DNA from: Gymnodinialimonas sp. 57CJ19
GTDB taxonomy: Bacteria; Pseudomonadota; Alphaproteobacteria; Rhodobacterales; Rhodobacteraceae
Direction of reading: 5' to 3'
DNA: 64,000 bases
Assembly: GCF_038396845.1 (NCBI RefSeq)
Contig: NZ_CP151587.1
Location: 3,322,001-3,386,000, forward strand
Shown here: positions 38,424-62,384 of the stretch, in pieces
How positions within the stretch are numbered: the stretch's first letter is position 1
Layout of the letters: every line of letters starts with the position of its first letter
Notes under the pieces: model-generated
The model's database searches: none
Seen by the model: only the letters and a program-made list of their open reading frames with translations
Told to the model about the DNA's origin: nothing
Made by a program: the position numbers and the translations under genes

Positions 38424-38439
38424 CATCGTCCAATAAGAC
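38424..38439. promoter_or_regulatory. Island operator F (CATCGTC-N6-GAC)
   Basis: CATCGTC at 38424-38430 and GAC at 38437-38439, between divergent fadD3 (78 bp from its start) and the SDR gene at 38502 (62 bp). One of six copies of this element, each in front of a transcription unit of the island. Confidence 0.6.
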
Positions 38440-38501
38440 GACGTCTTTGGCTGCATCTTCTCTAGGTCTGAGCCACGGAATTTGGAACAAGGATCAACGC
38501 T

Positions 38502-39299
38502 ATGCGCGCACCAATCTCTTCGGGTGACATTCACCTGGGCGGCAAGATTGCCATCGTAACCGGTGGCAGCCGGGGCATCGGCGCGGGGATCGCCGCAATG
38601 TTGCTGGAGGCCGGGGCGGAAGTTGCGATTTGCGGGCGCAGCGCACCAGAGGTCTTGCCCCAAGGCGGCGGCAAGACGGCTCGTTTCTGGCCCTGCGATG
38701 TGCGCGACGCGGGCGCGGTTGCCGAATTTGTGGCCAGTGTGGGCAAAGCCTTTGGCCGGATTGATATCCTCGTCAATAACGCCGGCGGCGCGCCCGCGTC
38801 CGATGCGGCGACGGTCTCGCCCCGGTTTCACGAAAAGATCGTCGCGCTCAACCTGATGGCGCCAATCCACATGGCGCAGGCCGTGCATTCGTGGATGGTC
38901 CGCAATGAAGGGGGGGGCAGCATCGTGAATATCGCATCGGTTTCAGGAACGCGGCCCTCGCCGGGGACGGCGGTATACGGGGCCGCGAAGGCCGGACTTT
39001 TGGGCCTGACACGCAGCCTGGCCGCAGAATGGGGGCCGACCGTTCGGGTCAATGCGATCGTGGTGGGGCTGGTCGACAGTGGCGGCGATGCCTTGCCCTA
39101 CGGAACCGCGGCAGCACAGGAAGCGATTGCGGCGTCCTTGCCGCTGAAACGGCTGGGGGTGCCAGCCGATATCGCGGCGGCCACGTTGTATCTGTCCAGT
39201 CCGATGGCTGCCTATGTCTCGGGCGCGGTGCTGGAGGTTCACGGCGGGGGCGAGCGGCCCCTGTTCCTTGATCTGGTGGCGCAGCATTCCGGGGGCTGA
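38502..39299 (+). CDS. Short-chain dehydrogenase/reductase of the steroid island
   Basis: 265 residues. Classical SDR: TGGSRGIGAGIAAMLLEAGA, NNAGGAP, catalytic NIASVSGTRPSPGTAVYGAAKAGLLG (Ser, Tyr, Lys), and a C-terminal LEVHGGGERP in place of the usual DGG. Divergent from fadD3 with operator F between them, so probably co-regulated. It could act on a 3-hydroxyacyl-CoA or a ring hydroxyl of HIP-derived CoA esters; the substrate is not deducible. Its stop codon lies in the loop of a perfect hairpin. Confidence 0.8.
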   Translation: MRAPISSGDIHLGGKIAIVTGGSRGIGAGIAAMLLEAGAEVAICGRSAPEVLPQGGGKTARFWPCDVRDAGAVAEFVASVGKAFGRIDILVNNAGGAPASDAATVSPRFHEKIVALNLMAPIHMAQAVHSWMVRNEGGGSIVNIASVSGTRPSPGTAVYGAAKAGLLGLTRSLAAEWGPTVRVNAIVVGLVDSGGDALPYGTAAAQEAIAASLPLKRLGVPADIAAATLYLSSPMAAYVSGAVLEVHGGGERPLFLDLVAQHSGG

Positions 39300-39308
39300 G
39301 CCCCCGGA
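39288..39308. terminator. Hairpin between convergent SDR genes, stop codon in loop
   Basis: TCCGGGGGC (39288-39296) pairs perfectly with GCCCCCGGA (39300-39308); the 3-nt loop TGA is the stop codon of the rightward SDR. There is no T-tract, so it is a weak or Rho-assisted terminator, or protects both convergent mRNA ends. Confidence 0.5.
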
Positions 39309-39316: not shown

Positions 39317-40222
39317 TCAGGACGTCCCCCACACCGGCTTGGCCTTGGGGCGATCAGCCATCAGCCGGTCCACGGCACCGCCGACTTCCTCGGCTTGCCA
39401 CATGCGACCGGCATCTTCCGAGGGGCCATCGCTCCAGCCAAGACACAGCGTCAGCTTGCCGCCAATCAGTTCAAACACCTGCCCCGTTACCTCTGACGAC
39501 GCCGCAGAACACAGCCACGCCACAAGCGGAGCGGTGTTTTCGGGCGCGAACGTGTCAAAATCGCCGTCCTTCTTGCTCATCGCTTCGCCGAATGCGCCTT
39601 CGGTCATTCGCGTACGGGCGTTGGGAGTCAGCGCATTGGCCGTGATGCCGTAACGTGCCAGTTCCGCCGCCTGAACCAATGTCATCGTGGCAATGCCGCC
39701 CTTCGCCGTTGAATAGGCCGTCTGCCCCATGGAGCCGTGCAGCCCGGCGCCCGACGTGGTGTTGACGATACGCCCGTCCACCGGCTTGCCCGCCTTGGCC
39801 TGGCCGCGCCAGTAATCCACCGCATGGCGAGAGGTGCAAAAATGGCCGCGCAGGTGGACGTGCATGATTGCGTCCCACTCATCCGGCGTAGCCGAGACAA
39901 ACATCCTGTCGCGCACGAAACCGGCGTTGTTGACCACTGCGTGGAGGCCGCCGAAGGTCTCGATTGCCTGGGCAACCATGGTGCCCGTCGCGTCCCAATC
40001 GGCAACATCGGCGTGGTTGGCAATAGCGCGTCCGCCGGCTGCCGTGATCTCGGCCACGACGGCATCTGCGGGGCTTTCGCCCGTATCCTCGCCATGGTTG
40101 CTGACGCCCAGGTCATTTACCACAACCGCAGCCCCCTGGGCCGCCAGCTCCAGCGCATAAGCGCGGCCAAGGCCCCGGCCCGCGCCTGTTACAATCACCA
40201 CCCGGTCGTCACAAATGCCCAT
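39317..40222 (-). CDS. Rv3548c-type SDR of the steroid C/D-ring pathway
   Basis: 301 residues from ATG 40222 with a perfect AGGAGG six bases upstream. It begins GICDDRVVIVTGAGRGLGRAYALELAAQGA, then VNDLGVSNHGEDTGESP, VNNAGFVRDRMF, and catalytic NTTSGAGLHGSMGQTAYSTAKGGIATMTL; ends with an extended GWSDGP...KPVWG tail. Start, insertions and tail match what I remember of Rv3548c, a KstR2-regulon SDR with a hydroxysteroid-dehydrogenase-4-like (MFE2-type) N-terminus, which suggests oxidation of a 3-hydroxyacyl-CoA side chain. Last gene of the echA-fadE-fadE-fadA6 unit. Confidence 0.75.
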   Translation of the reverse strand: MGICDDRVVIVTGAGRGLGRAYALELAAQGAAVVVNDLGVSNHGEDTGESPADAVVAEITAAGGRAIANHADVADWDATGTMVAQAIETFGGLHAVVNNAGFVRDRMFVSATPDEWDAIMHVHLRGHFCTSRHAVDYWRGQAKAGKPVDGRIVNTTSGAGLHGSMGQTAYSTAKGGIATMTLVQAAELARYGITANALTPNARTRMTEGAFGEAMSKKDGDFDTFAPENTAPLVAWLCSAASSEVTGQVFELIGGKLTLCLGWSDGPSEDAGRMWQAEEVGGAVDRLMADRPKAKPVWGTS

Positions 40223-40475
40223 CTCGAGCCTCCTCATTCTGTGTATTTCGCCCCAATCGCACCGGGATCGCATTTTCCCTGTTGCGCGGGCGGTTCGGTT
40301 CCATTTCGGTCAGCGGCGCGGTTTCGCACAGGCTGCCCAGGGCGCGTTTTGCCAGGCGCTGGTATTCACCGTGGCCGTTGTTGCGCCAAGCGATCTCATC
40401 CGCTGACAGGGACCGCGCGATCCGCGCTGGTGAGCCCGCCACCGGACGCAGCCCCTCGAACGCGCAACAGGCCAT
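40209..40475 (-). CDS. Possible small protein between fadA6 and the Rv3548c-type SDR
   Basis: 88 residues, same strand, starting 3 bp after the fadA6 stop and ending 14 bp inside the SDR start region. The 256-bp gap it fills is otherwise empty in an operon where genes normally touch, which supports a real gene. The sequence (IARSLSADEIAWRNNGHGEYQRLAKRALG, then a basic, Asn-rich tail) is soluble-looking and unlike the shadow frames nearby, but I do not recognise it. The ribosome-binding site is poor. Confidence 0.35.
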   Translation of the reverse strand: MACCAFEGLRPVAGSPARIARSLSADEIAWRNNGHGEYQRLAKRALGSLCETAPLTEMEPNRPRNRENAIPVRLGRNTQNEEARDGHL

Positions 40476-40478
40476 GGT

Positions 40479-41630
40479 CTAGAGACGCTCGATGATGGTC
40501 ACGTTGGCCTGGCCCCCGCCCTCGCACATGGTTTGCAAACCATAGCGCCCGCCGCGGCGTTCCAGCTCGTATAGCATCGTGGTCATCAACCGCGCGCCGG
40601 TGGCGCCAAGGGGATGCCCGAGCGCGATAGCGCCTCCATTCACATTGACCTTGTCGTGGGGAATGCCAAGTTCCTTCATCCACGCCATCGGGATCGACGC
40701 AAATGCTTCGTTACATTCAAACAGGTCGATATCGTCGACGCTCAACCCGACTTTCGCCAAGGCATGTTGCGTTGCGGGGATTGGCGCGGTCAGCATCCAG
40801 ACCGGATCAGCGGCGCGCACGGTCAGATGGTGAATGCGCGCACGGGGCTTGAGGCCGTGATCCTTCACCGCCCGCTCAGATGCGATCAGCAAGGCCGCCG
40901 CGGCATCGGCGTTCTGGCTTGCGACGCCTGCATGGATCGTGCCGCCTTCGCGCAGCGGTTGCAGGGTCGCCATACGCTCCAGCGTGGTATCACGGCGCGG
41001 CGGTTCATCGTGATCGAGCCCGTTGAGCGGCGCGATTTCCGGGGCGAAACGGCCTTCGTCCATCGCCGCCAGGGCGCGGGTATGGCTTTCCAAGGCGAAG
41101 GCTTCCATCTGATCGCGGGATATCTCCCACTTGTCGGCGATCATCTGGGCAGAGCGGAACTGGTTCACCTCGGCATCCCCATAGCGGGCTTGCCACCCCG
41201 GAGAGGTCGAGAACGGATCCGGGAAACCAAACGCCTGCCCCGCCATCATCGCCCCGGAAATCGGGATCGCATTGAGGTTTTGCACCCCGCCTGCCACCAC
41301 CAGATCCTGCGTGCCGCTCATCACACCTTGCGCGGCAAAATGGACGGCCTGCTGGGACGAGCCGCATTGGCGGTCAACCGTGACGCCGGGAACATGCTCG
41401 GGCAGCCCCGCCACCAACCAGCAGGTCCGCGCAATGTCGCCTGCTTGTGGCCCAAGCGTTTCGACACAGCCAAAGACCACATCGTCGACCGCTGCCGGAT
41501 CTATGCCGGTGCGTTCCATCAGGACCTTGATCGGATGGGCCCCAAGATCGGCAGGGTGCAGGTCTGCGAAACTGCCCTTCTTGCGGCCCACGGGAGTGCG
41601 GATGGCGTCGATGATATAGGCTTCAGGCAT
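40479..41630 (-). CDS. fadA6: FadA6-like steroid 3-ketoacyl-CoA thiolase
   Basis: 383 residues from ATG 41630, which lies 8 bp inside the end of the upstream fadE. Thiolase residues: acylated Cys89 (VDRQCGSSQQA), GGAIALGHPLGATGARL with the His, and the second Cys in LQTMCEGGGQANVTIIERL. The opening AYIIDAIRTPVG and internal KDHGLKPRARIHHLTVRAADPVWMLTAPIPAT agree closely with remembered FadA6 (Rv3556c), which thiolyses the open-chain dioxo-decanedioyl-CoA formed after ring opening by IpdAB. Conserved neighbours (acyl-CoA dehydrogenases, Rv3548c-type SDR) support this. Confidence 0.82.
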   Translation of the reverse strand: MPEAYIIDAIRTPVGRKKGSFADLHPADLGAHPIKVLMERTGIDPAAVDDVVFGCVETLGPQAGDIARTCWLVAGLPEHVPGVTVDRQCGSSQQAVHFAAQGVMSGTQDLVVAGGVQNLNAIPISGAMMAGQAFGFPDPFSTSPGWQARYGDAEVNQFRSAQMIADKWEISRDQMEAFALESHTRALAAMDEGRFAPEIAPLNGLDHDEPPRRDTTLERMATLQPLREGGTIHAGVASQNADAAAALLIASERAVKDHGLKPRARIHHLTVRAADPVWMLTAPIPATQHALAKVGLSVDDIDLFECNEAFASIPMAWMKELGIPHDKVNVNGGAIALGHPLGATGARLMTTMLYELERRGGRYGLQTMCEGGGQANVTIIERL

Positions 41631-42669
41631 GGGATGTTTCCTGCGGGAAAAGAGTGTCGGGGGCGAAAGGCAGCGCGTCCAGCCGCGCTGCATAGCGATT
41701 TCGGTGGTGTGTTTCGGTGCCAAAGGTCCGGCGCAACGCCAAGGTACGCTTGAGATAAAGATGCACGTCGGCCTCTTGCGAGTAGCCCATGCCGCCGTGG
41801 ACCTGAATGGCCGTGCGCGTGGCAAGGTCCGCCGCCCGGCCACAGGCGATTTTCGCGTGACTGATCCGGGCGCTCGTGGCCTGCCCCGCCCCCGGCAACA
41901 GCGCCGATGCCGCATGCAGCACCGGGCGTGCAAATTCCACCGCGACCTGCGCGCTGGCCAAATGATGCTTCAGCGCTTGATTGACGCCAATGGGCTTGCC
42001 GAATTGCGTACGCTCGCAAGCATAAGCGACCGAGATATCAATGGCCTTCTGCGCGATGCCCAGAAGTTGCGCGGCGGCAAAAAACGCGCCCGCGTCAGCG
42101 GCCTGGTTTGTGACTTGCGCCGCGGCATCGCCCTCGGCCACTACGTCTGCGCTTGTGCTGGTCACGGTGAGTAGCCGGCGCAACGGGTCGATTGTCGGTT
42201 GCGGTGTCAGCGTGACGTTCGCGGCCGCCGCAAGGCGCACCCGATCCGTGTCCATGATCAGGAAATGACTGGCCCGGTCCGCGCCATCGACAAGACGCGC
42301 GTCCGGGTGGGACACGGCGACGTGGGTCGACCCTGCCAAAACATCGGCGATCAACGCCTTTTGCCCCAGAGAGGACAAAGCGGGCAGAACAACGCCCATG
42401 ACGTTCAACAAAGGCTCGGGCAACAAGGCCGCGCCACAGGCCTGGGCAATATCCACCACGTCCGGCCCCGACAACGCGAGGCCGCCCTGAGCCTCGGGCA
42501 TCAACGCGCCCAGAAGTCCCAGATCGACCAAGCCCTGCCACCGGGCCTGATCAAAACATCCCTCCGATGCCGCCAGCTTTCGCAGGTCTGCAGTTGTGCA
42601 ATGCTCCGTCAGGAACCCCTGCACCATTTCGGACATCATCAACTGTTCTTGGGTGAAGACGAATTGCAT
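41623..42669 (-). CDS. Acyl-CoA dehydrogenase, probable beta-type subunit (FadE32/33-like)
   Basis: 348 residues from ATG 42669. Acyl-CoA dehydrogenase fold: helical N-terminus (FTQEQLMMSEMVQGFLTEHC), LGLLGALMPEAQGGLAL, and the C-terminal FAD contacts YACERTQFGKPIGVNQALKHHLA and AIQVHGGMGYSQEADVHLYLKR. It lacks the EPxxGSD segment of the beta-sheet domain. Steroid-pathway dehydrogenases often form alpha2beta2 heterotetramers in which each subunit supplies half of the FAD site; this one has the half missing from its upstream neighbour. Five bases separate the two genes. Confidence 0.78.
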   Translation of the reverse strand: MQFVFTQEQLMMSEMVQGFLTEHCTTADLRKLAASEGCFDQARWQGLVDLGLLGALMPEAQGGLALSGPDVVDIAQACGAALLPEPLLNVMGVVLPALSSLGQKALIADVLAGSTHVAVSHPDARLVDGADRASHFLIMDTDRVRLAAAANVTLTPQPTIDPLRRLLTVTSTSADVVAEGDAAAQVTNQAADAGAFFAAAQLLGIAQKAIDISVAYACERTQFGKPIGVNQALKHHLASAQVAVEFARPVLHAASALLPGAGQATSARISHAKIACGRAADLATRTAIQVHGGMGYSQEADVHLYLKRTLALRRTFGTETHHRNRYAARLDALPFAPDTLFPQETSHA

Positions 42670-42674
42670 CGCGG

Positions 42675-43838
42675 TCACTTCCTTGGCATGCCGAGCATCC
42701 GCTCGGCGATGATGTTGCGTTGGATCTCGTTGGTTCCGGCGTAGATCGGTCCGGCGAGGGAAAACAGATACCCGTCCAGCCAACCGCCCGCATCGGGCGC
42801 CGCATCAGCGCCCGGGAGCAATTCCGCGCTGCCGCCCAAAATATCGAGGGCGGTTTCATGCAGCGCGATGTCCAGCTCGGACCAGAAGATCTTGTTGGTG
42901 GATGCCTCGGCCCCGATCGAGCCCCCCGCGACCAACCGAGAGGCGGTCGCGTAGATCGACAGGGCATAGGCCTCGGCCCCCATGCAGGCATCCGCGACCC
43001 GTGCGCGCAAGGTGGGATCGAGCGCCTCCCCTTGAGAGCGCGCCAAAGCCACAAGCGCCTGTGCGGCCATTTGATAGCGTGCGGGGCTGCGCAGCATAAG
43101 GCCCCGTTCAAACCCGGCCGTGGCCATGCAGATTTTCCACCCCTCGCCCTCGGCCCCAAGGATATTTTCCGCAGGCACCCGGACGTCGTCCAAATGCAGT
43201 TCCGCGAACCCGTGTTCGCCGTTGATCTGGTGGATCGGAGTCCGTGTGACGCCCGGCGTGTCGAGGGGGAACAGGATGAGGCTGAGCCCGTGATGGCGTT
43301 CGCTATCCGGGTCACTGCGAAACAGACCAAAGGCCCAATCGGCATAGACCGCCCGTGACGACCAGATCTTGTGACCTGAGAGCACGTATTCATCACCGTC
43401 GCGCACGGCCTTTGCCCGGACCGCTGCCATATCTGATCCGGCCTGAGGTTCGGACCACGCCTGCGCCCAGATTTCCTCACCGGTCGCCATCTTGGGCAGG
43501 AATCGCTTTTTCTGCGCGTCGGTTCCGAATTCCATCAACGTCGGCCCCAACAGGAAAATTCCGTTCTGGTTGACCCGAAGAGGGGCACGGGCGGCGTAGT
43601 ATTCTTCTTCGAAGATCAGCCAGCGGATCAGGTCGACACCGCGTCCACCGTAGGCCTCTGGCCATGTGACCATGCCCCATCGCCCCTCGTTCAGGACCGC
43701 CTCCCAGGCGCGGTGCGCTTCAAACCCCTCACGCGAGGCATCGAAACTGGGCAATGGCGTGGCGGGCACATTGTCGGCCATCCAATCGCGCACCTCCATT
43801 CGGAAGGCGTTTTCCTCGGGGGTAAATGTCAGGTCCAT
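42675..43838 (-). CDS. Acyl-CoA dehydrogenase, FadE31-like alpha-type subunit
   Basis: 387 residues. Landmarks: ALNEGRWGMVTWPEAYGGRG-like region, IFEEEYYAARAP, GPTLMEFGTDAQKKRFLP, WAQAWSEPQAGSDMAAV, GHKIWSSRAVYADWAFGLFRSD, INGEHGFAELHLDDVRVP and the end FSLAGPIYAGTNEIQRNIIAERMLGMPR. It closely resembles remembered FadE31 (Rv3562). It keeps EPQAGSD but lacks the RTQFG FAD-contact motif, the reverse of its partner gene, so the two probably form one heteromeric enzyme dehydrogenating a late ring-opened CoA ester. Confidence 0.8.
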   Translation of the reverse strand: MDLTFTPEENAFRMEVRDWMADNVPATPLPSFDASREGFEAHRAWEAVLNEGRWGMVTWPEAYGGRGVDLIRWLIFEEEYYAARAPLRVNQNGIFLLGPTLMEFGTDAQKKRFLPKMATGEEIWAQAWSEPQAGSDMAAVRAKAVRDGDEYVLSGHKIWSSRAVYADWAFGLFRSDPDSERHHGLSLILFPLDTPGVTRTPIHQINGEHGFAELHLDDVRVPAENILGAEGEGWKICMATAGFERGLMLRSPARYQMAAQALVALARSQGEALDPTLRARVADACMGAEAYALSIYATASRLVAGGSIGAEASTNKIFWSELDIALHETALDILGGSAELLPGADAAPDAGGWLDGYLFSLAGPIYAGTNEIQRNIIAERMLGMPRK

Positions 43839-43844
43839 GAAAAA

Positions 43845-44732
43845 TCAGCCCTTCTTCGCGGCGTCTTTGTTGGCTTTCGCCATTCCGCCCGCGTCGAGGC
43901 CCGAAAGCCTGTCGCCAGACACCAGTTCGTTCTGGGCGTGGGCGAAGTGATGCATATGGAACACCGCATCCATCGAGGTGCGCTTGCCCCGTGCATCCTC
44001 CACATGGTTCACCGCCTGTTTGGTCAACCACATGCCAAGCGGCGGCATCCCGGCCAATTTCTCGGCCCATTGTGTCGTGGTTGCGGAAAGCTCATCGCGT
44101 GGCACGATCTTGTTGACCATGCCAAACGTCTCGGCCCGCGCGGCAGGCATCCGGTCGCCCAGAAGCAAGAATTCCTTGGCGACACGCGGCGGCAACTCAA
44201 ACGCATGGGCGAAATATTCGACGCCCGGAATGCCCATCCGGATCACCGGGTCCTGAAAGAACGCGTCTTCTGACGCGACGATCAGGTCGCAGACCCAAGC
44301 CAGCATCAAGCCGCCCGCGATGCAGGCGCCTTGCACCATGGCGATGGTGGGCTTTGGGCAATCGCGCCACCGACGGCACATGCCAAGGTATTGCTCCTGC
44401 TCGCGCGCATAGAGGAACTCTGCGCCGTCCTTCCTGGTGTGGTCTTCCCACAACAAGCGCCGCTCAAACGGTTGATCCACATCGCGACCCGGCGTGCCAA
44501 TGTCGTGACCTGCGGAGAAATGCTTCCCCTCGCCGCCCAGAACGATGGCCTTCACGTCGTCATCATCAACGGCACGGCGGAACGCATCGTCCAGAGCATA
44601 GGTCATCTGGGAATTTTGGGCGTTGTTGAATTTGGGCCGGTTCATCATGATCCAGGCCACAGCGTTTTCGACGCGGTATGTGACCGGTTCATCTGTCTCG
44701 TACTGTGGCGCGCTTGGCTGATCTTGCGTCAT
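43845..44732 (-). CDS. Enoyl-CoA hydratase/isomerase family protein
   Basis: 295 residues from ATG 44732. Crotonase fold: AWIMMNRPKFNNAQNSQM, VLGGEGKHFSAGHDIGTPG (oxyanion hole), an insertion of ~30 residues with many charged and aromatic residues, then MVQGACIAGGLMLAWVCDLIVASEDAFFQDPV and GIPGVEYFAHAFELPPRVAKEFLLLGD. It heads the operon echA-fadE-fadE-fadA6-SDR and is preceded by operator A. The neighbours suggest it hydrates the 2-enoyl-CoA produced by the FadE pair, before thiolysis. It is distinct from the EchA20-like hydrolase at 56875. Confidence 0.82.
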   Translation of the reverse strand: MTQDQPSAPQYETDEPVTYRVENAVAWIMMNRPKFNNAQNSQMTYALDDAFRRAVDDDDVKAIVLGGEGKHFSAGHDIGTPGRDVDQPFERRLLWEDHTRKDGAEFLYAREQEQYLGMCRRWRDCPKPTIAMVQGACIAGGLMLAWVCDLIVASEDAFFQDPVIRMGIPGVEYFAHAFELPPRVAKEFLLLGDRMPAARAETFGMVNKIVPRDELSATTTQWAEKLAGMPPLGMWLTKQAVNHVEDARGKRTSMDAVFHMHHFAHAQNELVSGDRLSGLDAGGMAKANKDAAKKG

Positions 44733-44819
44733 GGGTTTCGGTCCTTGTCCTATGCAGGCGCGCCCTTGGTTCGGTCGCCCGTTTTCCCTGTCAGACCTAC
44801 GCGCCACGGGCCGCGCAAT

Positions 44820-44835
44820 CATCGTCTGTTGAGAC
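44820..44835. promoter_or_regulatory. Island operator A (CATCGTC-N6-GAC)
   Basis: CATCGTC 44820-44826, GAC 44833-44835, extended by TAACG. Inner symmetry GTCT/AGAC. Located 88 bp before the echA start at 44732, downstream of the thioesterase stop. The 21-bp core is identical to operator C. Confidence 0.7.
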
Positions 44836-44848
44836 TAACGCACCCGCC

Positions 44849-45355
44849 TTAGTCCTGGCGGTCCATGCTGACGCGGCGTCCAAGACCCTCAGGCACAGGC
44901 ACACCTTTTTGCGTTTCCAGCAGGGCGTTCCAGGCACGGGATTGCGCGTTATCGGGGATTGGCGCGGGCCTGCGGGTTGTCAGATCCATATGGAGGAGCA
45001 TGGTTTCCATCGTGGCAGAGCGGCGACCGTCCGACCTGTTCCAAAGCTGAAAAAACAGATGGAACCGCTTGCCGTCCGTCGCGGCCAACCATGCGGTGAC
45101 ACAGATTGGCGTGCCTTCCAGCAATTCCGCCTGATAGCGGACATGCTTCTCGACGCGGAAATAGCCTTTCGCCTCTTGCTGAGGGTACGCCGGCGTCCAC
45201 CCCATATCATAAAAGAACGCCATATCGGCGTTCTCCATGATCCGGTCATAGGATTTCACGTTCATATGCCCGTTTTCGTCGATGTCATCGGGTCCGACGT
45301 ATCCTGTCCAACAAACGGGCCCCGCCGAAGCCGGTAACGCTGCATACTCACCCAT
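44849..45355 (-). CDS. Hotdog-fold acyl-CoA thioesterase
   Basis: 168 residues from ATG 45355, which lies 8 bp inside the end of livF. 4-Hydroxybenzoyl-CoA thioesterase-like hotdog: TGYVGPDDIDENGHMNVKSYDRIMENADMAFFYDMG, with the Asp/Glu-N-GHMN active-site loop, then RVEKHVRYQAELLEGTPICVTAWLAATDG. It probably releases CoA from a dead-end or overflow acyl-CoA intermediate; the substrate is unknown. It is co-transcribed with the ABC transporter genes, not with the beta-oxidation genes, which hints at a link with export or uptake of acids. Confidence 0.78.
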   Translation of the reverse strand: MGEYAALPASAGPVCWTGYVGPDDIDENGHMNVKSYDRIMENADMAFFYDMGWTPAYPQQEAKGYFRVEKHVRYQAELLEGTPICVTAWLAATDGKRFHLFFQLWNRSDGRRSATMETMLLHMDLTTRRPAPIPDNAQSRAWNALLETQKGVPVPEGLGRRVSMDRQD

Positions 45356-46076
45356 TGGAGGCCGTCGCCAGGCGTTCAGCGTTCCAATCTGCCAGCCGCG
45401 CATCAAGATCGCTCGAGGCACATTCCAACGCCACTTCGCCCCGGCTGATGATCATTGCGCGGTCGGTGTAGGGTTGTGTCAACTTCAAGTGCTGCTCCAC
45501 GATCACGACAGCGGTGCCGGATTCCGCCCACTTTCGCAAGAAAGACAGGATCGGCGGCAACAGCATCTGGGCGACACCCATGGAAGGCTCGTCACACAGC
45601 AGAACCTTCGGTCGGGCGACAAACGCCTGCCCCAAAGCCAGGATCTGTTGTTGACCGCCTGAAAGGTCACGGGCTGGCTGATCGCGCTTTTCCTGGAGGA
45701 TCGGAAACACTTCATGGATCTCCCGAAGCGATTTCTCAAAACTTCCCTTGTCGCGCACTGCCGCCGCCTGGCCCAAGCGAAGGTTGTCGTAGACCGTCAA
45801 CTCCGGAAAGACGCGGTGGTTATCGAGGACCAGCCGCAACCCTTCACGCGCCACTTTTTCAGGCGGCAAGCCCGTGACGTTCTTGCCGTTGAGCACGACA
45901 GACCCCGAGCTTGGCGTGTTGAACCCACTGATCGCACGCAGCAGCGTCGACTTGCCCGCGCCGTTTTCGCCGCCGATCAACAGAATTTCTCCGGGTTCGA
46001 TGGACAGGGATACATCGCGCACAACGGGGATATCGCCGTATCCAGCGGTTAAACCTTTGACTTCAAGCAATGGCAT
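45348..46076 (-). CDS. livF: LivF-type ABC transporter ATPase
   Basis: 242 residues. Walker A GENGAGKSTL, Q-loop, signature LSGGQQQILALGQAF, Walker B VLLCDEPSMGV, H-loop VEQHLK. The LivF branch is indicated by LLEVKGLTAGYGDIPVVRDVSL and RLVLDNHRVFPELTVYDNLRLG. It energises import with the LivM-LivG fusion and LivH. It starts 14 bp inside the upstream gene. Confidence 0.9.
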   Translation of the reverse strand: MPLLEVKGLTAGYGDIPVVRDVSLSIEPGEILLIGGENGAGKSTLLRAISGFNTPSSGSVVLNGKNVTGLPPEKVAREGLRLVLDNHRVFPELTVYDNLRLGQAAAVRDKGSFEKSLREIHEVFPILQEKRDQPARDLSGGQQQILALGQAFVARPKVLLCDEPSMGVAQMLLPPILSFLRKWAESGTAVVIVEQHLKLTQPYTDRAMIISRGEVALECASSDLDARLADWNAERLATASNG

Positions 46077-47865: not shown

Positions 47866-47866
47866 C

Positions 47867-48766: not shown

Positions 48767-48868
48767 CCATCCTCCCAAACGGTTCTGCGCCGTCATGACA
48801 CGTGGATCGTCCAAACTTGGATACCACCCTGACAGTGTCCCAACCATGAACGGTCATGGCGGGCGAAC

Positions 48869-54640: not shown

Positions 54641-54651
54641 CGGATCGCCTC

Positions 54652-55589: not shown

Positions 55590-55605
55590 CATCGTCTGTT
55601 GAGAC
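55590..55605. promoter_or_regulatory. Island operator C (CATCGTC-N6-GAC)
   Basis: CATCGTC 55590-55596, GAC 55603-55605, continuing TAACG; core identical to operator A over 21 bp although the flanks differ. It sits 60 bp before ipdA, between the MaoC stop and the ipdA start. Confidence 0.7.
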
Positions 55606-55615
55606 TAACGAAACC

Positions 55616-56083
55616 TCACTCGGGCAGAAACGCATAGCGTTGCAGGGTATCGGCCACGCACGCGGGCTTGTCGGTGCCCTCAATCTCGACTGTCAGACGC
55701 ACTTTTGTCTGGATCATCCGGTTGCCCAAATCCTGGGCCTCAAGAATTTCGCCATGGACCCGGATACGAGACCCCACCGGCACCGGCGCAGGGAACCGCA
55801 CACGGTCGACGCCATAGTTCACCCCCCAGTCCAGATTGTCGGGCATGAACAGATCAGGCAGAGCCATGTTAACCAGCGAAAGCGACAGGAAACCGTGGGC
55901 GATGGTCTTGCCGAACGGACCATTGGCGGCGCGTTCGGGGTCCACATGCAACCATTGGTGATCGCCAGTTGCATCCGCGAACATGTCAATGCGGTCCTGT
56001 TCGATGACCATCCAGTCGGTGGGCCCAAGACTTTTGCCAATGGCCGCAGTCACTTCCGAGGCGGAGGTAAAGGTAAACGTCAT
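55616..56083 (-). CDS. MaoC-family dehydratase
   Basis: 155 residues from ATG 56083 behind AGGAG. Hotdog-fold MaoC/R-hydratase: DWMVIEQDRIDMFADATGDHQWLHVDPERAANGPFGKTIAHGFLSLSL, with the catalytic Asp/His pair (DATGDHQWLH), and NYGVDRVRFPAPVPVGSRIRV. It should hydrate a 2-enoyl-CoA or dehydrate a 3-hydroxyacyl-CoA. The mycobacterial C/D-ring regulon does not have an obvious homologue that I recall, so it may serve HIP side-chain oxidation here. Last gene of the long fadE-to-maoC unit. Confidence 0.85.
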   Translation of the reverse strand: MTFTFTSASEVTAAIGKSLGPTDWMVIEQDRIDMFADATGDHQWLHVDPERAANGPFGKTIAHGFLSLSLVNMALPDLFMPDNLDWGVNYGVDRVRFPAPVPVGSRIRVHGEILEAQDLGNRMIQTKVRLTVEIEGTDKPACVADTLQRYAFLPE

Positions 56084-56092
56084 GAACGGCTC

Positions 56093-56878
56093 CTATGCGC
56101 GTTGAGAAGAAACGGAAACCACCTCACCCACCATGTAGGAGGCGTAGTCGGAGGCGAGGAATATGATCACATTGGCGACTTCCCAGACCTCGGCGGCGCG
56201 GCCGAAGGCCTCTCGATCCGCAAGCGCCTTGAGAGCTTCTTCCGGCGCGGATCGGGCAAGGAATTCATGCATCGCGATCGAGGGGGAGACCGCGTTGATA
56301 CGGATACCGTGGTCTGCTGCTTCCAGCCCCGAGCACCGCGTCAGCGCCATGACACCCGCTTTGGCGGCCGCATAATGCGCCTGACCTTTTTGAGCGCGCC
56401 AGCCCAGAACCGAGGCATTGTTCACGATGGCCCCGCCCTTGCGCGCGGTCATGAACGGCAGCATGGCGCGGGTCATGCGCATCGTGCCTGTCAACGTCAC
56501 GTCCAGCACGCGGGTCCATTCATCGTCCTGCATCTCAACCACAGGTTTCAGACCACCCAACCCGGCATTGTTGACGAGGATATCGGTGCCACCCAGTGCC
56601 TCTTCCGCTGCGGCGACAAGCGCTTGCACTTCGTCCTCGACCGTTACGTTGCAGATCTGGCCGAACACGGCGCAGTCGGGCGACAGCGCCTGCAAGTCGG
56701 CGACGGCCTGATCCAGCCGCCCTTGGTGGATATCGGACACCATCACGGCACGGGCGCCTTCCTCGACCGCTCGTCTGGCGGTGGCAAAGCCAATTCCTTT
56801 TCCAGCGGCCGCGGTGATCAGGACAGAGCGCCCCTTCAGCAGACCGTGGCCGGGCACATAATCGGGCGCTTTGTTCAT
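56093..56878 (-). CDS. ipdF: IpdF-like SDR (5-hydroxy-indene-carboxyl-CoA dehydrogenase)
   Basis: 261 residues. SDR with an atypical nucleotide motif VLITAAAGKGIGFATARRAVEEGA, preceded by VPGHGLLKG. Very strong agreement with remembered IpdF (Rv3559c) in NNAGLGGLKPVVEMQDDEWTRVLDVTL, IVNNASVLGWRAQKGQAHYAAAKAGVMALTRCSGLEAA, RINAVSPSIAMHEFL, EAFGRAAEVWEVA and FLASDYASYMVGEVVSVS. In Mycobacterium IpdF oxidises the 5-hydroxyl of the indene-carboxyl-CoA intermediate before ring D hydrolysis. Overlaps the upstream echA20 stop by 4 bp. Confidence 0.85.
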   Translation of the reverse strand: MNKAPDYVPGHGLLKGRSVLITAAAGKGIGFATARRAVEEGARAVMVSDIHQGRLDQAVADLQALSPDCAVFGQICNVTVEDEVQALVAAAEEALGGTDILVNNAGLGGLKPVVEMQDDEWTRVLDVTLTGTMRMTRAMLPFMTARKGGAIVNNASVLGWRAQKGQAHYAAAKAGVMALTRCSGLEAADHGIRINAVSPSIAMHEFLARSAPEEALKALADREAFGRAAEVWEVANVIIFLASDYASYMVGEVVSVSSQRA

Positions 56879-57648
56879 TTCTTGTCATCCTTGGAAAAAT
56901 CAGCGGCGCGGCCGGTGGCCACGAATGCGTCACGCGTGGCTTGGCTTTCGGCGGTCAGATACGCCTGCGCGGTAAAGCCTTGTTCCCACCGGTAGGCCCG
57001 TTCCAGATCGGTCGCCTCGATCCCGTTGAGGGATTCCTTGGCCAACGCGATCATTGTGGGGCTTTTGGCGGCAATCTTCGCGGCAATCTGCATCGCGGTG
57101 TCGCGCAGGGCGTCGCGCGGCACGACATCGGCGATACCGCCCCATCTGGCGGCTTCCGTCGCAGTAATCGGATCGCCCGTGTAATACATCCGGCGCACCA
57201 GTTGCAGTGGCAGCATGCGCTGCAAATGGGCCCCCGCCCCCAACGCGCCCCGGTCGACCTCTGGCACCCCAAGCGTCGCGTCATCCGCCAGGACGACGAT
57301 ATCGGCCGAGCCGCAGATGCCGATGCCGCCGCCCAGTACAAATCCCTGCGCGGCAGCAATGACCGGCGCGCGGCCCTGATGAACGGCGCGGAAGGTTTCC
57401 CAATTGCCCTTGTTGACGTCGATGATCCTTTCAGGGTGCGCCTGTAGTTCCTTTATGTCGACCCCGGCGCAAAACCCGCGCCCCTCGGCACGGATCACCA
57501 CGACCCGTGTATCAGGATCTGCATGGGCTGCCTCAATCGTGCGGGCCAGTGCAAACCACCCCGCCGAGTCCAGCGCGTTAACAGGCGGATTGTCGATGAC
57601 CACCTCTGCGATGTGATCGTTGATCGTCAGATGAATGGGATCAGCCAT
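56875..57648 (-). CDS. echA20: EchA20-like ring D hydrolase (crotonase family)
   Basis: 257 residues. Crotonase fold: VVIDNPPVNALDSAGWFALARTIEAAHADPDTRVVVIRAEGRGFCAGVDIKELQ, AAQGFVLGGGIGICGSADIVVLADDATLGVPEVDRGALGAGAHLQRM, and AKESLNGIE...AYRWEQGFT. The stretches fit remembered EchA20 (Rv3550), which hydrolyses ring D of the dioxo-hexahydroindene-carboxyl-CoA. It starts 8 bp inside the ipdC-like gene and overlaps ipdF, so three pathway steps are translationally linked. Confidence 0.83.
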   Translation of the reverse strand: MADPIHLTINDHIAEVVIDNPPVNALDSAGWFALARTIEAAHADPDTRVVVIRAEGRGFCAGVDIKELQAHPERIIDVNKGNWETFRAVHQGRAPVIAAAQGFVLGGGIGICGSADIVVLADDATLGVPEVDRGALGAGAHLQRMLPLQLVRRMYYTGDPITATEAARWGGIADVVPRDALRDTAMQIAAKIAAKSPTMIALAKESLNGIEATDLERAYRWEQGFTAQAYLTAESQATRDAFVATGRAADFSKDDKK

Positions 57649-58723
57649 GGGCCGCCTCCTTGTTGTGTGTCAGCGATGTCATCGCGGAAATACGCGCCAA
57701 TGCGTCCGCTTCTATCCCCGAGATCAGTGCCTCGCAGCTTTGCAGTTCCCCGATCAAAGCCGCGACCTGACCGGATGGCAAAAGCCCCTCTTTGGTGTCG
57801 CCCTCCACCAATCCCTTGACCACGAGGGTCGGCAGGTTGGGTGCCATGACCGTTGCCGCGAATGAGCTGTCGTCAGACCGCGCCGCACGCCATGCAAGCG
57901 ATGCCATGTCGGCATAGCTCATCGCGTTTGCGCGCCCGTAGGCGAGACCGTGGCGAATGCTGGCGACAAACCGTTTCACGCCAGTCATTCCTTCCAGCCG
58001 TCGCACTTCAGCGTTTTCGATGAACCGTTGTGGCAAGCCATCGACCGCCTTGGTCACGCGGATCACCGACGGGTCGCCGGTCTTGAGGTAGGTCTCCAGG
58101 GTGTCGCGCGCGACCGGGCTGTCGGTCGTCAGCAGGAAGCGCGTGCCCATGGCAATACCCTGCGCCCCCCACGCCAGCGCCGCAGCAAGGCCGCGGCCAT
58201 CATGGAAACCGCCTGCGGCAACGACAGGCACGTCGACCGCATCGAGCACTTGCGGCAGCAGCAGGGACGTCGGGACCGATCCGGTATGCCCGCCGCCCTC
58301 ACCGCCTTGAACGGTGATGATGTCCGCCCCGAGCTCCACCGCTTTCACGGCGTGTTTCAGCGCGCCGACCGTGGGCATGCACAAGATGCCCGCATCCTTG
58401 AAGCGCCCGATGGTAGCGGCGTCTGGCCCGCGTCCGTAGCTGACAGCGCGAATGCGATCGGCGTGGGCCAGAATTGCCGCGATGATCTCATCCGCGTTGG
58501 GCTGGAACATATGGAAATTGACGCCAAATTTCCCGTCACACGTGTTTTCGACTTGTGTGATCTGCGCATCAACCTCGCCCGGTGGGATAGAGGCCCCTGC
58601 AAGGAAACCAAACCCCCCGGCCCTTGTCGTTGCAGCGACCAGGGGCGGCTCTGCCACCCAGCCCATCGCCGTTTGCACGACAGGCACGCGGCACCCAAGC
58701 AGCCGTGTAAGTTCAGTTTGCAC
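57641..58723 (-). CDS. ipdC: IpdC-like FMN-dependent reductase (nitronate monooxygenase family)
   Basis: 360 residues from GTG 58723; the longer frame runs back into the preceding SDR and has no better start. NMO/2-nitropropane dioxygenase TIM barrel: VPVVQTAMGWVAEPPLVAATTRAGGFGFLAGA, KFGVNFHMFQPNADEII, ITVQGGEGGGHTGSVPTSLLLPQVLDAVDVPVVAAGGFHDGRGLAAALAWGAQGIAMGTRFLLT. Size and context match IpdC (Rv3553), the reductase acting on the 5-hydroxy-indene-carboxyl-CoA in the mycobacterial pathway. A generic nitronate monooxygenase is the alternative if context is ignored. Confidence 0.8.
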   Translation of the reverse strand: MQTELTRLLGCRVPVVQTAMGWVAEPPLVAATTRAGGFGFLAGASIPPGEVDAQITQVENTCDGKFGVNFHMFQPNADEIIAAILAHADRIRAVSYGRGPDAATIGRFKDAGILCMPTVGALKHAVKAVELGADIITVQGGEGGGHTGSVPTSLLLPQVLDAVDVPVVAAGGFHDGRGLAAALAWGAQGIAMGTRFLLTTDSPVARDTLETYLKTGDPSVIRVTKAVDGLPQRFIENAEVRRLEGMTGVKRFVASIRHGLAYGRANAMSYADMASLAWRAARSDDSSFAATVMAPNLPTLVVKGLVEGDTKEGLLPSGQVAALIGELQSCEALISGIEADALARISAMTSLTHNKEAAHG

Positions 58724-58728
58724 GCCGC

Positions 58729-59484
58729 TCAATGGAACACCCGCCCGCCGTTGACCAACAAGGCCTGACCGGTGATGTAACGCGCTTTGTCCGAGGCAAG
58801 GAACAAGACCGCATTGGCGATATCCTCGGGCTCGCAAATCTGTTTCATCGGCACCGCGTCGCGGGCACGCTCAAAGCTGTCGCGCGGGATGCGTTGCATG
58901 GCGCGTGTGTTCGTCGGGCCAGGGCATACGGCGTTTGCGGTCATCCCATAGGGGCCGATTTCGCGGGCGAGACCACGCATGAAGCCCAGAACGCCGGACT
59001 TGGCGGCGGCGTAGTCGACGCAGCCCAAATCGCCATTGAACGCACTGTCCGACGAGATCGAGATAATCCGGCCCGCCTTGCGATCTTTCATCGAAGCAAC
59101 AACTTCGCGGGTGCAGTGAACCGCCGCGCGCAAGGATATGTCGAGAACAAAATCGAGGGTGTCATGCTTGGCCTCGGAGAACGGCGTCGTGGCCTCGCGC
59201 GCCGTCTGGCCAAGGTTGTTCACCAACACATCAACCGGGCCAAGCGCCTCTACGGCGCCGGAAAACGCCGCGACGATCGTATCGAGGTCAATGAAGTCGC
59301 CTTGCATCGTGTGGACCTTGGCCCCCAATGCACGGGCATCTTCCGCTGTCTGTTCCAGCGCCTCACCGTCGATGTCAAAGATCGCCAGATCGGCACCAGC
59401 GTCAGCAAAACCCAGCGTGATCGCCCGCCCGATTCCATGCGCTGCCCCCGTGATCGCCACTACCTTTTTGTCAAAGTCCTTCAT
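58729..59484 (-). CDS. SDR-family oxidoreductase
   Basis: 251 residues from ATG 59484 behind GAGAGG. Classical SDR: VVAITGAAHGIGRAITLGFADAGADLAIFDID, NNLGQTA, catalytic SISSDSAFNGDLGCVDYAAAKSGVLGFMRGLAREIGPYGM, NAVCPGPTNT, and LLVNGGRVFH. It resembles 2-hydroxycyclohexanecarboxyl-CoA dehydrogenase (BadH)-type SDRs acting on alicyclic CoA esters, which fits a ring intermediate. Five bases separate its stop from the ipdC-like GTG. Exact substrate unknown. Confidence 0.8.
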   Translation of the reverse strand: MKDFDKKVVAITGAAHGIGRAITLGFADAGADLAIFDIDGEALEQTAEDARALGAKVHTMQGDFIDLDTIVAAFSGAVEALGPVDVLVNNLGQTAREATTPFSEAKHDTLDFVLDISLRAAVHCTREVVASMKDRKAGRIISISSDSAFNGDLGCVDYAAAKSGVLGFMRGLAREIGPYGMTANAVCPGPTNTRAMQRIPRDSFERARDAVPMKQICEPEDIANAVLFLASDKARYITGQALLVNGGRVFH

Positions 59485-60040
59485 TGTCCATCCTCTCATT
59501 CCATTGTGCAGCGAGGGCCTGCGCAAAGGCTGGCACCACTCGGTAACTTGGGTCGTCGCGCCCTGCGCATCCGCGCTCGGACGTGGCGGCAGGGTCATTC
59601 CAATCGGCGGCATTCACGCCCCGGCGATCGACCCAGTCGATCACCACATGGCGCGAGCGGAAGAACCACGCGCCACCGCGACGCGCGTAGTGATCGAGGC
59701 TGCGTGACCCGGTGACCACATGGTGCGCATCCGGCCCATGTGTGCGGTGATAGTTCAGTTTGTGAACCTCGCCTTGCGCGGTGTCGCCGTCGATCTCGAA
59801 CGCGGTCTGCATCACGTAATGCGCCGTCGCCGAATAGGCTTTCAGCGCAGTTTCCACATACGTGACGTAATCATCTGCCGACCCGGTGAAGGCGCGGCCG
59901 TGGGCATCGGTGCCCTCGGGCAGGTAAAGGGCCCTCAGCATGGCCAAATCGCGCCGGTCCACGGCCCGGGAATAGGCCGCGACAAGACGGCTCAACGCGT
60001 CTGCATCGGCGATCTCCTGGGGGCTACGGGGGCGGATCAT
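59471..60040 (-). CDS. SnoaL-like (NTF2-fold) protein
   Basis: 189 residues. SnoaL-like cone fold: DADALSRLVAAYSRAVDRRDLAMLRALYLPEG, ETALKAYSATAHYVMQTAFEIDGDTAQGEVHKLNYHRT, and a C-terminal GGAWFFRSRHVVIDWVD. This family covers aldol cyclases, dehydratases, steroid delta-isomerases and ring-hydroxylating dioxygenase small subunits. The polar residues (Asp, His, Arg) suggest catalysis. It overlaps both neighbours (4 and 14 bp). It has no counterpart that I recall in the mycobacterial KstR2 regulon. Confidence 0.72.
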   Translation of the reverse strand: MIRPRSPQEIADADALSRLVAAYSRAVDRRDLAMLRALYLPEGTDAHGRAFTGSADDYVTYVETALKAYSATAHYVMQTAFEIDGDTAQGEVHKLNYHRTHGPDAHHVVTGSRSLDHYARRGGAWFFRSRHVVIDWVDRRGVNAADWNDPAATSERGCAGRDDPSYRVVPAFAQALAAQWNERMDNEGL

Positions 60041-62292
60041 GGGGCTGTTCCGCGCGGCTCGCGGGGCATCTTCAACCCATGCTCTGCAATGATGTTGAGC
60101 TGGATCTCCGAGGTGCCGCCATAGATCGTATCCGCACGGGAAAACAGATACAGATGCTGCAAGCGCCGAACGTCCGGATCATCGGACCAGGCCGCCGCCG
60201 CTGGCCCGATGACATCCATCGCCAGATCCCCCAGACTGCGGTGCCATTGCGACCATTCCAGCTTGTAGCCCAGCATTTCCGGCCCGGCGCGGCCCTCGGA
60301 TTGTGCCTGCAACATCCGCATCGCACCGTGGCGCATGGCCCGCAATCCGGACCAGGCACGGCCAAGCGGTTCGGCAAGCGTATCCGTATCGGTGCGCGCG
60401 CGCGCCAAGCGAATGACGGTGTCCAGCTCGCGCGCGAACCCCATCTGTTGCCCCAGGGTCGAGATCCCCCGCTCGTGACCCAATAGCGCCATCGCGATTT
60501 TCCAGCCGTCGCCCACGCCGCCCAGCATGTCACAGGCCTTGGCACGGGCATCGTTGAAGAAAATCTCGTTGAATTCCGCCTCGCCGTTGATCTGCTTGAT
60601 CGGGCGCGTATCAATCTCCGGTTGGTCTAGCGGCATCATCAAGAAGACCAAGCCGTTGCGTCCGACCGACCCTTCTTCGGCGCGGGCCAATACGAAGACC
60701 CAGTCCGACACATGGGCGAGCGACGTCCAGACCTTTTGCCCCGTCACCAGCCAATCACCGGTATCGGGACATAGGCGCGCCCGGGTCCGCACAGCGCCAA
60801 GGTCCGAGCCCGCGGTGGGTTCGGAATAGCCCTGCGCCCAGAATGTTTCACCCTTTAGAATGCCCGGCAGAAAACGCGCTATCTGGTCGTCTGTGCCAAA
60901 CTCGATCAGCGTTGGCGCCATAAGCCCCTCGCCGATATGGCCCATGCGTCCCGGACCACCACGGGCGGCATATTCCTCATGGAACGCCACTTGATCCGCG
61001 ATGGATATGCCCCGACCGCCGGCGCTTTCGGGCAGACCGATACCGACCCACCCTCCGCCGGCCAATTCCCGTTCCCACGCCTTGCGCAGCTCGACCTCTG
61101 CGTCGCCGTCGCCGGCATGACCCCGATCCTTGAGCACGTCAAAATCACCCGTCAGATGTGCGTCCAGCCAATGGCGCACCTCGTTGCGCCAGGGTGTATC
61201 GGCCACCTGCGGCACGGCGGATAGATCCCCCGCCAAAAGCGCCCGCCCGATGGTTGCGAAGTTCTGGCTTGGCGTCCCGGCCAAATCCTGCTGCGCCCGT
61301 GCGCGCTTGAAGAAGAGATGCGGGGCGTATTCCCACGTCGCCCCGACGCCGCCGTGCAACTGGATCGCCTCTGACGCCATGGCGGATTGCACGTCACGCG
61401 CGATGGCCCAAGCAGCGCGGGCCTCTTGACCGGCAACCGCCTGCTCCTTGTCCAGCCCTTCGGCTGCGCCAGCGATCATCGCATCGGCGGTGTTGATCTG
61501 AACGAACAGCGCCGCCATGCGGTGTTTGATGGCTTGAAACGACGCGATCGAACGGCCGAATTGCCGACGCTCCTGAATGTAATCCAACGTTAAATCGAAT
61601 GCGCCCCGCGCCGCGCCTGCCGCTTCCGCCGCGAGGGCAACATGGGCCCGGTCCAGCGCGGTGTCCAAGGCATCAGCGCCGCCATCAACGGGAAGAAGGC
61701 GCGTCACAGGCACCGTGCATCCGTCAAGCGGCACCCTGCCAACGGGGTGTGTCGGATCGAAGCTTTGATCGCCATCCGATGCGTCCGGCCCGTCCATGGC
61801 AAACAGAACCACCTGTCCGTCCAATGTCGCCGGAACAACGATCAAATCGGCATCGGGGGCATCGGGAACCAGGCCCAGATCGCCCGTCAGACGGTAGCCG
61901 TCATCGGTTGCTGTCGCTGTCACCTGATCCGCGTTCCAACACCCCAGTGTGGCGCGCAGATCCCCTTCCGCAATCTTCTCCAGCCAAGGCAGTCCGGCCT
62001 CTCCGGCGGCGCATAATACGGGCGCGACTACCCCGACGGTGGACACGAACGGCACAGGAGACAACACCCGGCCCAGCTCGCGCACCAATGGCGTCAGCGC
62101 CGCCAAGCCCAGGTTCAACCCTCCGGCCGCTTCTGGTAAGGATATTCCGCACAGTTGCAGATCTTTCGCCAACGCGGTCCAGACCGCATCATCTGCGGCT
62201 CCGTCGTGGGCATCTTGAGCGGGCCTCAGCCCTCCCGCCTCGGCGAGGTACCGCGAAAGGGCATCCTGCATCATCTGGATTTCGTCGTTCAT
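60037..62292 (-). CDS. Fused double acyl-CoA dehydrogenase (FadE34-like architecture, FadE30-like C-terminal half)
   Basis: 751 residues from ATG 62292 (GGAAG site; ATG 62304 is possible), about twice a normal acyl-CoA dehydrogenase. The N-terminal half (~1-365) has YIQERRQFGRSIASFQAIKHRMA and QLHGGVGATWEY but no EPxxGSD. The C-terminal half (~370-751) has GIGLPESAGGRGISIADQVAFHEEYAARGG, WAQGYSEPTAGSDLGAV, GQKVWTSLAHVSDWVFVLAR, INGEAEFNEIFF, LGDLAMDVIG and DTIYGGTSEIQLNIIAEHG but no RxQFG. Each half thus has the FAD-site part that the other lacks, a covalent alpha-beta pair. The C-terminal half resembles FadE30, which desaturates the HIP-CoA propionyl side chain. Confidence 0.85.
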   Translation of the reverse strand: MNDEIQMMQDALSRYLAEAGGLRPAQDAHDGAADDAVWTALAKDLQLCGISLPEAAGGLNLGLAALTPLVRELGRVLSPVPFVSTVGVVAPVLCAAGEAGLPWLEKIAEGDLRATLGCWNADQVTATATDDGYRLTGDLGLVPDAPDADLIVVPATLDGQVVLFAMDGPDASDGDQSFDPTHPVGRVPLDGCTVPVTRLLPVDGGADALDTALDRAHVALAAEAAGAARGAFDLTLDYIQERRQFGRSIASFQAIKHRMAALFVQINTADAMIAGAAEGLDKEQAVAGQEARAAWAIARDVQSAMASEAIQLHGGVGATWEYAPHLFFKRARAQQDLAGTPSQNFATIGRALLAGDLSAVPQVADTPWRNEVRHWLDAHLTGDFDVLKDRGHAGDGDAEVELRKAWERELAGGGWVGIGLPESAGGRGISIADQVAFHEEYAARGGPGRMGHIGEGLMAPTLIEFGTDDQIARFLPGILKGETFWAQGYSEPTAGSDLGAVRTRARLCPDTGDWLVTGQKVWTSLAHVSDWVFVLARAEEGSVGRNGLVFLMMPLDQPEIDTRPIKQINGEAEFNEIFFNDARAKACDMLGGVGDGWKIAMALLGHERGISTLGQQMGFARELDTVIRLARARTDTDTLAEPLGRAWSGLRAMRHGAMRMLQAQSEGRAGPEMLGYKLEWSQWHRSLGDLAMDVIGPAAAAWSDDPDVRRLQHLYLFSRADTIYGGTSEIQLNIIAEHGLKMPREPRGTAP

Positions 62293-62368
62293 TCCGTCTT
62301 CCATCGTGCCATTCGGTCTTTTCTTTGATCTGCCATGGTTGCAGAGCTAACAGCCCGCTGTCACGGGG

Positions 62369-62384
62369 CATCGTCCGAACTGAG
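62369..62384. promoter_or_regulatory. Island operator E (CATCGTC-N6-GAG)
   Basis: CATCGTC 62369-62375 and GAG 62382-62384, the most divergent of the six copies; the outer bases GCATC/GATGC (62368-62372, 62385-62389) add symmetry. It lies between the leftward fused fadE unit (77 bp) and the rightward SnoaL-SnoaL-OYE unit (52 bp), so it could control both. Confidence 0.5.

Follow-up and report, generated by a model that had tools for sequence, protein, structure and literature searches.

The window, 64,000 nucleotides of Gymnodinialimonas sp. 57CJ19 (contig NZ_CP151587.1, positions 3,322,001 to 3,386,000), contains an island of genes that encodes degradation of the lower steroid rings, that is of the C/D-ring compound methylhexahydroindanedione propionate (HIP), and that includes a gene for a TetR-family regulator (Table 1). 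The units of the island are preceded by a palindromic word, TMGTCY-N4-RGACKA, which, judged by comparison with related genomes, is genuine and conserved and most likely serves a lower-steroid regulon as its operator, read by the TetR protein of the island. The best PDB matches of IpdA were to chains of 6co6/6con (best 1.3e-78) and those of IpdB to 6con/6co6 (best 1.7e-54). The labels EchA20-, IpdC- and IpdF-like are presumptive and our own, assigned from family matches and the order of the pathway. The genes for the triosephosphate isomerase (TIM)-barrel-like protein and the thiolase lie upstream of tetR in the same direction.

Table 1. Features of the island in window coordinates. Bit scores of operators are from a matrix trained solely on other genomes. 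SDR, short-chain dehydrogenase/reductase; ABC, ATP-binding cassette; CoA, coenzyme A.
Feature	Position	Strand	Evidence and remarks
FadD3-like HIP-CoA ligase	36775..38490	-	NCBIfam PRK07656, 649.9 bits, just below cut-off 657; likely start 38346-38349
Operator A	38426..38441	-	TCGTCTTATTGGACGA on the - strand; between fadD3 (-) and SDR gene (+); exact match to TMGTCYNNNNRGACKA; 24.2 bits
SDR	38502..39299	+	NCBIfam PRK07856, above cut-off
SDR, thiolase, two acyl-CoA dehydrogenases, enoyl-CoA hydratase	39317..44822	-	NCBIfam; likely first start 44732
Operator B	44822..44837	-	Before enoyl-CoA hydratase unit; exact; 27.9 bits
Thioesterase-like protein and branched-chain-type ABC transporter livF, livMG, livH	44849..48847	-	NCBIfam, Pfam 4HBT_2; likely first start 48766
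Operator C	48871..48886	-	Before livH; overlaps stop codon of the TetR gene; exact; 25.2 bits
TetR-family regulator, predicted binder	48884..49639	-	Pfam, AlphaFold, co-occurrence with operator
TIM-barrel-like protein (weak QuiC match) and thiolase	49636..51779	-	NCBIfam; thiolase likely start 51737
Operator D	51813..51828	-	Before thiolase-TIM-tetR unit; exact; 27.7 bits
SDR, ipdB, ipdA	53079..55530	-	PDB matches
Operator E	55592..55607	-	Before ipdA-ipdB; exact; 27.9 bits
maoC, SDR, echA20-like, ipdC-like, SDR, SnoaL-like, two-domain fused acyl-CoA dehydrogenase	55616..62304	-	NCBIfam, Pfam
Operator F	62371..62386	-	Before fused acyl-CoA dehydrogenase; 2 mismatches; 11.4 bits

The sequence-only reading had placed copies of the word CATCGTC-N6-GAC at 38424, 44820, 48869, 51811, 55590 and 62369, and all six coordinates were correct; the word is exact at the first five, and the sixth copy has GAG as its last three bases. 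Its account of paired changes in the inner bases was also borne out, GTCT/AGAC at 44820, 51811 and 55590 and GTCC/GGAC at 48869, the inner bases at 38424 being GTCC/AGAC. The identical run shared by two sites (44820 and 55590) is 22 bases long rather than the 21 given. The proposed distance to the genes of about 55-110 bp agrees with gaps of 60-104 bp between palindrome and likely start: 60 bp for the SDR gene, 61 for ipdA, 66 for the fused dehydrogenase, 75 for the thiolase, 76-79 for fadD3, 89 for the enoyl-CoA hydratase and 104 for livH, the starts being our choice among in-frame codons. Five of the six sites are palindromes of the form TMGTCY-N4-RGACKA. The site at 62369 is degenerate in its distal half and has an intact promoter-side half, GGACGATG. 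The six sites stand, but the limit to six does not, as an exact site lies at 66091 in the window frame, 2.1 kb beyond the window end, and a one-mismatch site at 68003. Site 66091 overlaps the first codons of a listed frame for a branched-chain-type substrate-binding protein (66.6 bits, cut-off 477) whose later in-frame starts, including one preceded by GGAGG (66035), follow the site at about 50 bp; a binding protein at this place would fit the livHMGF genes of the island.

As the sole definition of the operator, CATCGTC-N6-GAC proved too loose. Of its 39 copies in the genome, 32 are outside the window, and at up to two mismatches the window alone has 169; it was rejected as a genome-wide marker because 29 of 30 outside copies checked lie in coding-like open reading frames (ORFs). 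The informative word is the full palindrome TMGTCY-N4-RGACKA, found eight times in the window at up to one mismatch (five exact) against 0.73 expected; none of 100 shuffles reached eight. The closed 3.86 Mb genome holds seven exact copies, five in the window and six at the island, and one distant copy at genome position 630585 in or beside short overlapping ORFs. Random spread through coding sequence, named beforehand as grounds for refutation, thus holds for the loose word and not for the full palindrome. With the matrix trained on other genomes, five of the six sites were the top five of 102 kb, and 62369 ranked 13th, behind 10566, 71812 and 27992 outside the island and the reverse strands of true sites. 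The one-mismatch words at 10566, 27994 and 57281 were treated as chance occurrences; the last lies inside the echA20-like ORF, the second inside ORF 27873-28841, and the first, not in the island, is 28 bp away from the end of the listed ORF 8715-10538. The raw number of full words per genome was also rejected as a marker, since it varies from 0 to 10 in 61 genomes (own included), with the maximum in a genome without the TetR protein; the reversed word occurs 11 times in the own genome. In G025, which is without the TetR protein, TCGTCTATGAAGACGA or its reverse complement occurs at ten places, apparently as a dispersed repeat. The telling feature is the clustering of the word before the genes of one pathway, not its count.

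Conservation was evaluated in 44 loci, obtained when species genomes were scanned once with three aligned TetR proteins; two of the loci are the G052 and G405 places. Island genes are present in 42 of the 44. The loci (851 kb) contain 80 exact words. Any other spacing between 0 and 11 yields none or one, and the mean for 359 permuted half-sites is 1.25. Exact words are present in 41 loci, and L084 has one-mismatch words only. No word was found in L115 and L116, which have TetR homologues with a different recognition helix and are without the island, and G092, with a more distant TetR protein (32%), has no exact word and a single one-mismatch word in the 50 kb examined. The 95 sites placed relative to genes comprise those of the 44 loci minus two duplicates plus the own region, G052 and G405; four lie in homology-mapped reading frames, each time in the N-terminal part of an over-long ligase or hydratase frame. 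Counted as an exact word within 260 bp upstream of the start, the word precedes 40 of 41 thiolase starts (the other with one mismatch), 12 of 14 enoyl-CoA hydratase starts, 7 of 28 ipdA starts (two more with one mismatch), 2 of 11 livH starts (four more with one mismatch), 2 of 5 fadD3 starts, 2 of 8 SDR1 starts (one more with one mismatch) and 2 of 3 livK starts; some of the misses (fadD3, livK) are due to over-long frames of the window. None of 629 coding controls has the word. Before livH, the place of operator C, Thalassorhabdomicrobium (L074) likewise has an exact word, and G052 one with a single mismatch. The word is conserved upstream of orthologous operons in other genera and orders, also in those with a rearranged gene order, and the proposal of a dimer-type operator that defines a regulon is supported by the comparative data. 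Two of the loci, L093 and L102, are segments of one Bradyrhizobium contig, about 43 kb apart and differing in gene content, each with the TetR gene and island. L088 is a Burkholderiales-labelled contig with a segment laid out like the Rhizobiales loci, which may reflect horizontal transfer or else an error in the label of the bin.

Of 24 starts of the N-terminal half of the fused dehydrogenase, 23 are preceded by RGACGATG and the one in G052 is not; this count leaves out a match to a paralogue in the own genome. The half-site is 96% alike in this class compared to 33% for the 40 bases upstream, which argues that site 62369 is real despite its poor matrix score. Since the distal half is similarly degenerate throughout the class, operator F is a standing asymmetric version and not the product of decay in one genome. 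The gene itself (60037-62304) encodes two fused acyl-CoA dehydrogenase domains (755 aa) matched by one continuous stretch in G052 and by two separate adjoining stretches, one for each half, in G405. Small SnoaL-like proteins (62436-62942 and 59471-60040 in the window) recur beside operators in both lower- and upper-pathway loci.

The site is polar, and in most promoters its distance to a -10-like TA is constant; both are new findings of this analysis. Of the 95 sites, 67 could be assigned to one direction, and in 65 of these GACGA is on the gene side (52 reading TAGTC..GACGA and 13 TCGTC..GACGA towards the gene, with 2 opposite). In 38 of the 67 a TA lies 38 bases from the start of the site, compared to 0.84 sites for the mean of the other offsets, and in 46 it lies within one base of this distance; in the dehydrogenase class an A is at 39 in 20 of 23 sites. 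Read as -12/-11, this TA would put the centre of the palindrome near -42 relative to predicted starts, and the -35 element would then be the ATG or TTG that follows the palindrome immediately, with a spacer of 17 or 16 bp. Promoters of Alphaproteobacteria often lack the thymine at -7 (PMC8407463). The six sites of the ipdA class have no TA at 38. Among the promoters of the own island, only that of the hydratase has TA at 38; those of the SDR gene and fused dehydrogenase have it at 37, those of livH, ipdA and livK have A at 39, and the thiolase and fadD3 have neither.

The protein encoded at 48884..49639 belongs to the TetR family, with a TetR_N helix-turn-helix domain (PF00440, 60.3 bits) and a TetR-type helical ligand domain (PF17932 TetR_C_24, 89.2 bits); the AlphaFold model (mean predicted local distance difference test score 89.6) bears this out, its structural matches being filled by TetR chains. 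A conserved palindrome before the presumed target genes is what is expected of the operator of such a protein, and association makes this TetR the most likely reader of the word. No orthologue was found in 12 other genomes of the same genus (best 2.0e-15 compared to 4.6e-162 for the protein itself), and three of 394 genomes in a sample of the family, own included, have one, which suggests that the island was acquired.

KshA is a key oxygenase of aerobic ring opening (PMC5790920). The KshA_C profile gave no match in the own genome (G000), G052 or G405. A further 39 genomes, which include G092 and the two island-less ones and leave out L080, yielded six weak matches; for the 36 with the island the best was 29.1 bits, and five were above the cut-off of 23.3. 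Genomes with the TetR protein are accordingly without a strong match (0 of 39). As a positive control, eight of 385 class-level genomes, own included, have ipdB at E <= 1e-50, and the other seven, which have no TetR orthologue (best 65.9 bits), all gave KshA matches of 188-284 bits. Since KshA is weak or absent in the one set and strong in all seven controls, the TetR protein and the word go in this sample with a lower pathway lacking KshA. The seven have no word within 10 kb of ipdB on the available contigs, the nearest being at about 14.5, 17.8 and 23.1 kb in G609, G705 and G686; ipdB of G705 is 2.8 kb from a contig end. The KstD model NF009479 scored at best 21.9 bits in the own genome, a weaker absence because no known positive served as control, and gave a partial match of 127.6 bits in G405.

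The sequence-only reading had asked whether upper-pathway genes also carry the word; the question has no object at KshA in the own genome, and an affirmative answer in another alphaproteobacterial family (f42). Three f42 genomes (G483, G609 and G705) have KshA, no TetR orthologue, and exact words near ring A/B genes (L178:10095, L179:7939, L180:11421, L182:1736, L183:6223 and L183:8688), with the same GACGATG tail and polarity at all seven places read. In G483 the word precedes KstD (548 bits to 3-oxosteroid 1-dehydrogenase, cut-off 788) and an HsaC-like extradiol dioxygenase, and in G609 and G705 the same word precedes frames of a length like that of G483 KstD; G609 (395.7 bits, cut-off 450) and G483 each also have it before an HsaA-like gene. 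The f42 genomes have 11-15 words in all, and no TetR protein with the same helix was found among the best matches or the stretches examined.

The explanation we favour, somewhat ahead of an even chance, is that the palindrome is the operator of the island TetR protein, which represses the HIP regulon until released by a CoA-thioester intermediate. A TetR dimer would bind TMGTCY-N4-RGACKA before the island units and block the -35 region that the site abuts, with HIP-CoA or a neighbouring CoA ester as the releasing effector. The regulon would include uptake, through livHMGF and the binding protein encoded past the window end, and the TetR protein would control its own gene, as tetR is downstream of operator D in the same direction. 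Several findings weigh against this explanation. The position near -42 and the single prevailing orientation would also be suitable for an activator, and KstR2 is not the top sequence match of the TetR protein, 3dcf, 3vpr and others scoring higher. The 44 loci were selected via the TetR gene, so that co-occurrence is partly built in, and 0-10 exact words in genomes without the protein mean that number alone proves nothing. The word, exact or with one mismatch, is absent from the 260 bp upstream of all 43 tetR starts, and self-control may accordingly be claimed for the operon layout of the window only. Finally, because the f42 genomes have the word before ring A/B genes and no TetR orthologue, another protein can probably read it.

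The sign of control would be repression by the habit of the family and activation by the geometry. Activation by a TetR dimer bound at the same sites, in a class II-like position upstream of a weak -35, is possible though doubtful. It would account for the polarity, the recurrent TA at 38 and A at 39, the centre near -42 with a -35-like ATG or TTG at a spacer of 17 or 16 bp, and the constancy of the promoter-side, not the distal, half in the dehydrogenase class; TetR-type activators such as FasR exist (PMC7382501). However, KstR2 (PMC3068626) and EdcR (PMC8700777), two TetR regulators of steroid genes, are repressors, and an operator fused to a -35 would keep its spacing constant in a repressed promoter too. 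The ipdA class has no TA at 38, and the thiolase and fadD3 promoters of the own island have neither TA at 38 nor A at 39. It is rather unlikely that TAGTC-N6-GACGATG is the alphaproteobacterial steroid control box, set before ring A/B genes in families that degrade the whole steroid and before only C/D-ring and uptake genes in a second guild, in which KshA was lost or was never present, with the TetR protein, by the fixed place of the site near -42, as an activator tuned to CoA esters and not a plain repressor; were it so, this guild would import and finish bicyclic remnants left by other bacteria. That the word is a general alphaproteobacterial steroid operator read by some other regulator, the neighbouring TetR protein being incidental, is improbable. 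The f42 genomes speak for it, but the TetR gene stands beside the sites in lower-pathway islands, the two homologues with a different recognition helix go without the word, and G493 and G591, which have a HIP gene and no TetR protein, have no words genome-wide. Chance words favoured by codon usage, as the loose word and the ten full words of a TetR-less genome might suggest, are refuted by the comparative counts, since the full palindromes of the island are clustered, intergenic and conserved.

The word repeatedly precedes genes for uptake, namely livH and livK in the own genome, an ABC set in G052 and a tripartite ATP-independent periplasmic (TRAP) transporter in G405. The last (DctQ, DctM, with an SDR; word at L148:7121) is on a contig outside the island and hints at a second uptake route. 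In Rhodococcus jostii an ABC and a major facilitator superfamily transporter serve cholate remnants (PMC8399759), and the recurrence of uptake genes suggests that HIP and similar bicyclic remnants are imported. The pattern could also come from an anaerobic 2,3-seco route, which needs no oxygen and would likewise be without KshA (PMC5790920); for this reason, and because some of the genomes are metagenome-assembled, remnant scavenging is put forward here as a suggestion. Taken with its clustering, the word can mark steroid genes of Rhodobacteraceae, Stappia and Rhizobiales. Together with the KshA split they point to bacteria living on steroid remnants, which makes steroid cross-feeding testable strain by strain. 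That Rhodobacteraceae and Rhizobiales degrade steroids was first indicated, according to its authors, by a metagenome study (PMC5790920).

A limited search of open-licence literature found no operator for HIP genes in Proteobacteria, and the one HIP-pathway regulator named in the literature consulted is the actinobacterial KstR2; according to a 2021 review, homologues of KstR1 and KstR2 are absent from bile-acid-degrading Proteobacteria (PMC8399759). In the Caenibius tardaugens bile-salt cluster bsd I, which has a TetR gene, the palindromes ATAGGGCCATTG and GCATGCGGGATGC were proposed as operators (PMC12882949), but these are other words and the genes there are for the side chain and not the C/D rings. 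The predicted model is near in fold to the TetR proteins AibR, solved with isovaleryl-CoA, and PfmR, which belong to other pathways and other hosts and are not known to be linked to steroids. In class II activator promoters of the CRP type a palindrome about 42 bases before the start abuts a weak -35, as may be the case here; the protein family is different, and the starts of the present promoters are predicted rather than mapped. EdcR of C. tardaugens is a TetR repressor of a steroid cluster, for the estrogen upper pathway, with the palindromic operator TnnCnnTACnAnTnGTAnnGnnA (PMC8700777), which has a single two-mismatch match in the window (23990; 0.37 expected); the island resembles that system as an alphaproteobacterial steroid cluster with a TetR protein and, as predicted here, a palindromic operator. 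KstR2 of mycobacteria and rhodococci is a TetR regulator of the HIP genes fadD3, ipdAB and ipdC with few palindromic sites before divergent units (PMC3068626, PMC5380842). The operator described here is distinct in sequence from the KstR2 word, as had been stated from the sequence, with no exact and two one-mismatch copies of AnCAAGnnCTTGnT in the window (1.09 expected). The two systems share a TetR-family regulator, predicted in the present case, and palindromes before HIP genes (fadD3, ipdA, thiolase and hydratase here); unlike in the KstR2 regulon, the site is also carried by genes for ABC uptake.

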